Assembly: GCA_030037185.1 (NCBI GenBank)
Contig: JASHRR010001210.1
Span: forward strand, 1 to 32,879
DNA length: 32,879 nucleotides
Reading direction: 5' to 3'
DNA from: Xanthobacteraceae bacterium
GTDB lineage: Bacteria; Pseudomonadota; Alphaproteobacteria; Rhizobiales; Xanthobacteraceae
The notes beneath the pieces were generated by a model. That model saw nothing but the letters and a program-made list of their open reading frames with translations, searched no databases and was not told where the DNA came from. Shown in pieces: positions 30,815-31,939 of this stretch. The position numbers and the translations under genes were made by a program. Each line of letters begins with the position of its first letter. Position 1 is the first letter of the stretch.

Positions 30815-31939
30815 TCAGCCGCGCTGTTGGGCATCACTCGACATGAACTCGCCAACCGCGTTCGTCAGCGCGACAAATCCCGCCACGGGAACCTCCTCCG
30901 CCCGCGCGGCCGGATCGATGCCGGCCGCCGCGAGGATCGGCTGGGGGTCGGCGGTGAGCGTGCGCAGGCTCTGCCGCAGCATCTTGCGCCGGTGCCCGAA
31001 GGCTGCGGCGGTGACGCGCTCCAGCAGCTTGCGGGAGCAGGGGAGGGGGGTTGCACGAGGGACAAGCCGCACGACCGACGAGGTCACCTTGGGCGGCGGC
31101 ACGAAGGCCGAGGGCGCGACGTCGAACATGATCTTTGCCTCAGTACGCCATCCCGCCAGCACCGCGAGGCGGCCGTATTGCTTGGCGCCGGGCACAGCCA
31201 CGATGCGCTCGGCGACCTCGCGCTGAAACATCAGGACCAGCGAATCGTACCATGGCGGCCACGGTTCGATGCCAAGCCAGCGCACCAGCAGCGCGGTTGC
31301 GATGTTGTAGGGAAGGTTCGCGATGACGCGCGCCGCAGTTATATTGCCGCCGGCTCGATGTTGCATTGAGTCGGTTGGGAACATGGCCGTAGCCGCAGAC
31401 TCCTCCCCTCGCCCAACTGAAGTCCGATGTTGCCGATTTCGCTCAGTGGCCGAACCCTCCGCCCGACCGAAATCGGCCGTCGCCGATTTCGGCCGTTCCG
31501 ATTGATCGGCCGAAACAGCCCCAAGCGTGCCTTCTCCCGCAAGCGGGGGAGGGCAGCGAGCATGGCAGGGAGCCACAAGGGAGGTGGCAACAGGGGGGAT
31601 CGGCGCACGGTTCCAGTCAATCTCGAGCGCGTCCGCCTCGACCGCCGTCAGCCTTTCTGGATAATGCGCGGCAATCTCCGCCAGCGCCGCGATGGCGCGG
31701 CTGTCGCGTTCGATCGCGATCACGTGGTGCGCGCCGTTCGCGAGCAAGGCGCGCGTGAGCCCGCCCGGCCCAGGCCCGATCTCCACGACCGTGACGCCCT
31801 TAACCGCGCCGCCCGCCCGCGCAATGCGCGCCGTCAGATTGAGGTCGAGGAGGAAATTCTGTCCAAGCGATTTCTTCGCTGACAGGCCGTGGCGCCGGAT
31901 CGTTTCACGCAGCGGCGGCAGCTCGTCGATCGCCGTCAT
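30815..31939 (-). CDS. rsmA: 16S rRNA (adenine(1518)-N(6)/adenine(1519)-N(6))-dimethyltransferase RsmA with large in-frame insertion
   Basis: RsmA (KsgA) dimethylates two adjacent adenines near the 3' end of 16S rRNA late in 30S assembly. ATG 31939 gives M-T-A-I-D-E-L-P-P-L-R-E-T-I; upstream codons are leader. Motifs present are K-S-L-G-Q-N-F-L-L-D (23-32), the SAM motif V-V-E-I-G-P-G-P-G-G (51-60), I-E-R-D (76-79), A-D-A-L (102-105), catalytic N208-L-P-Y211, and M-F-Q-R-E-V-A-E-R-I further on. Length is 374 residues against about 285 in relatives. The excess is an insertion at about 115-203, between A-D-A-L-E-I-D and the N-L-P-Y motif, coded by palindromic repeat DNA and without stop codons. 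The flanking enzyme is intact, so it probably works with the insert as a surface loop. Confidence 0.96.
   Translation of the reverse strand: MTAIDELPPLRETIRRHGLSAKKSLGQNFLLDLNLTARIARAGGAVKGVTVVEIGPGPGGLTRALLANGAHHVIAIERDSRAIAALAEIAAHYPERLTAVEADALEIDWNRAPIPPVATSLVAPCHARCPPPLAGEGTLGAVSADQSERPKSATADFGRAEGSATERNRQHRTSVGRGEESAATAMFPTDSMQHRAGGNITAARVIANLPYNIATALLVRWLGIEPWPPWYDSLVLMFQREVAERIVAVPGAKQYGRLAVLAGWRTEAKIMFDVAPSAFVPPPKVTSSVVRLVPRATPLPCSRKLLERVTAAAFGHRRKMLRQSLRTLTADPQPILAAAGIDPAARAEEVPVAGFVALTNAVGEFMSSDAQQRG
31331..31597 (-). repeat. Palindromic repeat element inserted in frame within rsmA
   Basis: The segment contains a perfect 11-bp inverted repeat, CCGAAATCGGC (31467-31477) / GCCGATTTCGG (31482-31492), plus a further copy of GCCGATTTCG at 31432-31441. 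A second hairpin, CCCGC-AA-GCGGG (31536-31547), sits in a G-rich stretch with CTCCCC-type sequence at the far end (31402-31408). Translated in the rsmA frame it gives a hydrophilic segment (P-P-L-A-G-E-G ... G-R-G-E-E-S-A-A-T). The borders are estimated from where RsmA similarity stops and restarts and may be off by ten or so codons. Confidence 0.75.

Follow-up and report, generated by a model that had tools for sequence, protein, structure and literature searches.

Reduced, A+T-rich genomes and weak selection are a common explanation for the in-frame palindromes of Rickettsia. These Rickettsia palindromic elements (RPEs), reportedly described by Ogata in 2000 and 2002, are said to be the classical case of repeated palindromes that lie in frame in unrelated conserved genes. 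Each RPE encodes a conserved peptide, as worded in the accessible part of PMC10969869. In-frame palindromes outside Rickettsia are already known, since intragenic GTAG/CGTC REPs, i.e., short palindromes, occur in open reading frames (ORFs) of several bacteria, where clusters of them encode 43–82 residues (PMC3733652, sections available). The same sections place many intragenic REPs in DNA repair genes (dnaE2, recB and uvrA), report different REPs at about one site in recB of two Xanthomonas species, and list Bradyrhizobium and Rhodopseudomonas palustris as carriers of GTAG/CGTC REPs. Enterobacterial RU elements and other MITEs are described as small, non-autonomous elements whose open frames fuse with genes (excerpts of PMC2759123 and PMC10969869).

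Here we analyze a stretch of 32,879 nucleotides with a G+C content of 64%, referred to as the window, which carries an rsmA gene with an in-frame insert. Like the RPEs, the repeats concerned are palindromic and lie in frame in conserved genes, namely in rsmA of the window and in nine of ten scanned ORFs from the genome of a relative, G001.

The rsmA gene of the window and its insert

The window protein carries the family profile of RsmA/KsgA, the SAM-binding and NLPY motifs, and the KsgA fold. It scores 214 bits against TIGR00755 (ksgA; cut-off 171) in two stretches, the better of which covers residues 186–361, and its match to Pfam RrnaAD is likewise split in two. The best PDB match aligns at residues 7–108 and 201–359 and skips the insert, and a Foldseek search places TFB1M and KsgA structures first, with E values down to 6e-25. 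The gene starts with ATG (MTAIDELPP), which is also the start in the related locus L001 (MTAIDGLPP), and its frame remains open upstream of the ATG as far as position 32059. The features of the locus are as follows.

30815..31939, minus strand: rsmA (ksgA), 16S rRNA (adenine1518/1519-N6)-dimethyltransferase, 374 residues including the insert
31763..31783, minus strand: SAM-binding motif EIGPGPG (motif I, residues 53–59), intact
31334..31600, minus strand: repeat-derived in-frame insert, residues 114–202, 89 codons, with borders known to within a few codons
31531..31552, no strand assigned: family A palindrome CTTCTCCCGCAAGCGGGGGAGG, read as PPPLAGEG, two mismatches to the A pattern
31467..31492, no strand assigned: family B palindrome of 26 nt with perfect 11-nt arms, read as PKSATADF
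31417..31442, no strand assigned: degenerate second family B palindrome in another phase, read as RNRQHRTS, five mismatches
31304..31318, minus strand: catalytic motif NLPYN (residues 208–212), intact, shortly after the insert

A preliminary description of this DNA had reported intact enzyme motifs on both sides of an in-frame insertion of about 85–90 residues, in a protein about 90 residues longer than its relatives, and our data agree on all three points. An alignment of 44 proteins shows no variation at Glu53, at Gly55–Gly59 or at any position of NLPYN. The core of the enzyme is under purifying selection, with a dN/dS relative to L001 of 0.061/0.394, or about 0.15, over 271 codons. The loop preceding N-L-P-Y, in which the 89 codons lie, comprises 98 residues in the window, whereas most relatives outside the clade have 13, so that the net gain is about 85. 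Measured from the start of EIGPGPG to NLPYN, the distance is 155 residues in the window. Of 80 related loci, taken from genome contigs as the best of 267, 79 have 69–75 residues and the other, L001, has 121. A second, family-wide search matched 387 of 391 genomes, and in 28 of the 29 loci measured, whose species overlap with the first set, the distance is again 69–75 residues; the remaining locus, L129, gave no value. The insert has a G+C content of 63.7% and no stop codon in the rsmA frame, as first stated. On its own this open frame is unremarkable: when the insert was dinucleotide-shuffled 2000 times, 434 of the shuffles were open too, and so were 1144 of 4000 stretches of insert length drawn at random from the window. 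The open frame was dropped as evidence for insertion.

Internally, the insert is composite: it combines three or more units from two families with unassigned sequence, and is not the one palindromic element originally described. The recognizable units, one A and two B, account for about 74 of its 267 bp. The claim of perfect inverted repeats stands for the core of the B palindrome at 31467–31492, which was not matched at up to three mismatches in any of 100 shuffles, but not for the longer arms (31448–31477 and 31482–31511), which are 77% complementary. Local duplication may have contributed, since the two B units lie in a 37-nt direct repeat (76% identical, 50 bp apart) and a weak tandem array of period 16 (2.5 copies, 31472–31512) overlaps the first of them. 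Folded as single-stranded DNA, positions 31395–31560 give z = −3.1, with 2 of 200 shuffles folding equally well. No second copy of A or B was found within the 32.9-kb window at up to two mismatches.

An AlphaFold2 model based on the 44-protein alignment (mean pLDDT 78) keeps the RsmA fold and predicts the insert to be disordered. Residues 118–189 and 191–198 have pLDDT values below 50 and no secondary structure, and are positioned between strands 97–101 and 203–207; residues 23–28 also fall below 50, while the blocks from residue 231 onward average at least 88. With the insert modeled as disordered in an otherwise folded protein, it could hang out of the folded enzyme, and presumably does so in the cell, where the peptide is probably translated and harmless.

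A separate observation concerns the DNA upstream of rsmA. In region 31938–32559 of the window, 580 bp lie between rsmA and the upstream frame, which we take to be pdxA, and the 11-mer ATGTGGCAACC is present at both ends of this spacer (31938–31948 and 32549–32559). The upstream gene and rsmA overlap by 4 nt in L001, and by 1 or 4 nt in 31 of the 39 relatives measured, L001 included. The spacer looks as if some 600 bp had been inserted with a target-site duplication; a search with it in 12 genomes gave no match, an empty result that is uninformative for this search.

Families A and B in a relative genome

The nearest relative found with a genome is the source of L001, a metagenome-assembled genome of 6.1 Mb (Centralia_MAG_73, 'Hyphomicrobiales bacterium'; G001), which was also the sole return of a genus-level search. 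The G001 enzyme likewise has its own insert, and its two flanking parts share 85% and 83% identity with the window RsmA. At up to two mismatches, the A pattern occurs in 197 copies in G001 (reversed control, 1) and the B pattern in 46 (reversed control, 0). Comparison of the insert DNA with G001 gave at least 44 matches, with 40 of 272 candidates scored, and nearly all of them fall on one or the other of the two good palindromes. Across 29 other genomes of the family, the copy numbers range from 0 to 72 for A and from 0 to 8 for B. Two A-rich genomes, G013 (72 copies) and G081 (67 copies), have a normal RsmA loop (L123 and L103), and repeat load as the sole cause of the insert was rejected on this ground. 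Both families are probably present in many copies in the window's own genome too.

Family A has the palindromic consensus CCCTCCCCCGCTTGCGGGGGAGGG between shoulders resembling GGGAGGGGG, and the consensus of 92 oriented extracts around the unit, some of which represent both strands of one copy, carries CCCTCCCCCGC at its end; the copy in addB of G001 extends to a 48-bp palindrome with perfect 23-nt arms. The B units of G001 start with CCGAAATCGG or TCGAAATCGG in nearly all cases among the matches listed. Many B copies in G001 (L082–L095 and others) have as neighbors another stem, similar to CCGAAGTCGGGC..GCCCGACTTCGG, and a flank resembling GGGCAAAGGCGCA, and B may therefore belong to a larger composite. 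Some A units of G001 stand close together in twos (L148 and L157), with spacings of 72 and 36 bp, and resemble REP dimers. The units presumably move as mobile DNA, perhaps by a transposase of the RAYT type; a Y1_Tnp profile gave one partial match in G001 (C154:7426-7560), with 34 bits over a cut-off of 23 and covering positions 26–70 of 121.

Absence of the repeat elsewhere in the genome had been named beforehand as an outcome that would speak against insertion, yet in the relative G001 the repeats are spread genome-wide and lie in frame in conserved genes. The coding test took 67 A and 25 B copies from stretches of G001 (up to three mismatches), of which one each, at an edge, was left out, and it required one open frame whose codon bias exceeds 0.10, a threshold of our own choice, both before and after the repeat. 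Of the 66 usable A copies in these stretches, 11 passed and a further six scored between 0 and 0.10, whereas none of the 24 usable B copies lies within a coding gene by the same test. The B units in rsmA of the window are thus not accounted for by G001. Ten of the 11 in-frame A copies have 0–2 mismatches to the A pattern, and the copy in L154 has three.

One protein family was matched on both sides of the repeat in nine of the ten ORFs that carry in-frame A units, and the remaining one (L154) is unassigned. Six of them align through the repeat, i.e., AddB (TIGR02786, 977 bits), the error-prone DnaE2, GpsA, an RND permease of the MdtB/C type, a long-chain acyl-CoA synthetase and hydantoinase B; in three others A lies between domains (Sua5, a UgpC-type ATPase, and a molybdopterin oxidoreductase with two copies). 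The addB and dnaE2 copies (L158 and L150) place two in-frame A units of G001 in genes of DNA repair or mutagenesis. Empty sites were compared for three genes, with approximate borders: the AddB insert (net gain of at least 11 residues) is present in G001 and in none of 11 relatives, the acyl-CoA ligase insert (18 residues) is present in G001 and in none of six, and the aligned stretch of GpsA has 76 residues in G001 against 65–70, i.e., 6–11 fewer, in ten of ten relatives. The A unit is read in several phases, as PPPLAGEG, PSPASGGG or SLPRLRGR in different genes.

Turnover of the RsmA loop and its explanation

The loop of rsmA has served repeatedly as a landing site, and it turns over fast. 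Among 121 proteins, i.e., the window protein and 120 homologues, the loop measures 13–114 residues; the homologues are the best of 8000 scored with a query that contained the insert, so that inserts are over-represented among them, and the loop of P0038 was delimited by a wider rule than the others. Nearly identical enzymes differ widely in this loop: P0048 and P0070 have 114 and 24 residues (core identity 277/283, 97.9%), P0023 and P0024 have 77 and 29 (272/282, 96.5%), and P0029 and P0032 have 75 and 29 (263/271, 97.0%). In 123 pairs with core identity above 90% and both loops of at least 60 residues, the cores are on average 92.8% identical and the loops 59.7%, with a mean of 17 gap positions. 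Between the window protein and its nearest homologue, P0002, 2 of 276 residues differ in the core and 5 of 98 in the loop (Fisher p = 0.015). The insert had been expected to be shared, with conserved sequence, by all close relatives if it were an old domain; it is lacking in 79 of the 80 related loci, and within the clade even close relatives have the loop exchanged and altered in length.

In a quick tree of the core without the loop, the 121 proteins form one group (SH-aLRT 99) apart from 20 genomic loci, taken from the 80. Peptides corresponding to a phase of A or B, defined by patterns written after the loops had been inspected, are present in 51 of the 121 loops (in those with at least 32 residues, 48 of 73), in none of 141 cores and in none of 20 locus loops. 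By parsimony the tree requires at least 29 changes for the A pattern, 14 for the B pattern and 19 for a loop length of at least 32 residues, with L006, L070 and L074 (true loops of 13 residues) left out; these counts are rough because many branches are weakly supported.

We consider it very probable that high-copy palindromic repeats of a REP- or MITE-like kind have entered the rsmA loop in frame and are translated as a disordered peptide, insertions of this kind being most likely tolerated there. The loop links two strands of the methyltransferase sheet, ahead of the strand leading to NLPY, and appears to accept very different peptides; given this tolerance, an in-frame repeat could survive and then drift. 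Both palindromes are open in the frames used, which would allow A and B to enter essential genes. Further repeats may land in or beside an earlier one, as suggested by B in two phases and by A, and deletions would trim the loop, so that after entry the sequence would drift and lose parts, with local duplication perhaps contributing.

Other accounts of the insert have to be weighed against this. A native loop, rich in Pro, Ser, Gly and G+C, might have grown by slippage, local duplication and drift, the palindromes being coincidental or secondary, and this would suit the PSPAPSP-like loops of many short-loop homologues, the loop lengths that grade upwards from 13, the larger part of the insert with no assigned repeat, and the 37-nt direct repeat and period-16 array. 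Such growth is nevertheless an unlikely explanation, as the 26 nt of the B unit form a perfect palindrome whose arms are those of a family with 46 copies in G001, and the A unit matches the 197-copy family and recurs in frame in unrelated G001 genes whose relatives are without it. An old, functional extra domain of the clade, e.g., one that binds rRNA or protein, is very unlikely: the window protein and P0002–P0017 do form one clade (SH-aLRT 97), most of which shares parts of the downstream flank such as a DSM/DTM-like stretch before NITA, but sister enzymes lack most of the insert or have it replaced (P0048/P0070 and P0012/P0017), the insert changes faster than the core, it is predicted to be disordered, and Pfam recognizes two methyltransferase domains only.

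The preliminary description had also held that the insert must either loop out or be removed for the enzyme to work, and the predicted disordered loop agrees with the former. Removal after transcription or translation, as an intron or an intein-like segment, might be considered for a segment that adjoins the catalytic motif; it is highly improbable, since at an E value of 0.001 Pfam gives RrnaAD and Methyltransf_25 and no intein for RsmA, no Rfam match was obtained in 30400–32879 up to E = 1, and homologues have in-frame inserts of many lengths at this site. That the relatives are mostly metagenomic could point to an assembly chimera, an idea we regard as scarcely credible given that P0002 (four member sequences), 98% but not fully identical to the window protein, has the same insert, and that related inserts are found on contigs of 77 and 106 kb (P0012 and P0004), unless these records derive from common reads.

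Beyond the entry of repeats into this one loop, we lean slightly towards a broader picture, in which the protein genes of a clade of soil Hyphomicrobiales have been invaded genome-wide by a multi-frame, G+C-rich palindrome. The RsmA loop would then be a standing landing site where unrelated families stack and where turnover outpaces core divergence, mobile DNA continually writing new disordered sequence into a ribosome assembly enzyme. The loop offers a natural series of insertions and deletions in one enzyme, for which a rough parsimony count gives 14–29 changes according to the trait, and in which near-identical enzymes serve as controls. This permits direct tests of how repeats yield disordered segments, how these persist, and what they cost the cell.

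Comparison with known in-frame repeats

The likeness to RPEs drawn in the preliminary description is borne out for palindromes in frame in conserved genes, here in a host of another order, the Hyphomicrobiales, but does not extend to a conserved peptide, as A is read in several phases. As for the many copies that mark RPEs, 197 of A and 46 of B were counted in the relative G001, and the window's own genome probably has many as well. Compared with RPEs, the units are also shorter and G+C-rich, and a single loop is filled repeatedly in RsmA. The explanation by reduced genomes is weakened, because G001 with its 6.1 Mb is of ordinary size and the window has 64% G+C.

The A units of G001 resemble the intragenic GTAG/CGTC REPs in their presence in the repair genes dnaE2 and addB (as far as the sections of PMC3733652 go), whereas A and B lack a GTAG or CGTC end, the B unit of the window having CGTC in its loop. 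Unlike these REPs, several families meet in one RsmA loop across many species. The terms 'KsgA' and 'methyltransferase' are absent from the main text of PMC3733652, and among the literature matches listed, all from open-licence papers, there is no report of repeat insertion in the rRNA methylase gene rsmA/ksgA and none of in-frame palindromes in genes of Hyphomicrobiales; the text seen of PMC554113, which cites the Rickettsia paper, contains nothing on such elements. Hyphomicrobiales cases may, however, be in print already, given the Bradyrhizobium and R. palustris REPs in the sections of PMC3733652 available. RU elements and other MITEs are longer (103–168 bp) and have other hosts, and the excerpts make no mention of the repeated filling of one enzyme loop. 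In comparison with REPs and REPINs mobilized by RAYTs, G001 has the one partial Y1_Tnp match described above (34 bits, positions 26–70 of 121). Set against these systems, what looks new is this role for two repeat families that lack a tag, together with a hotspot at one site that is filled across species.
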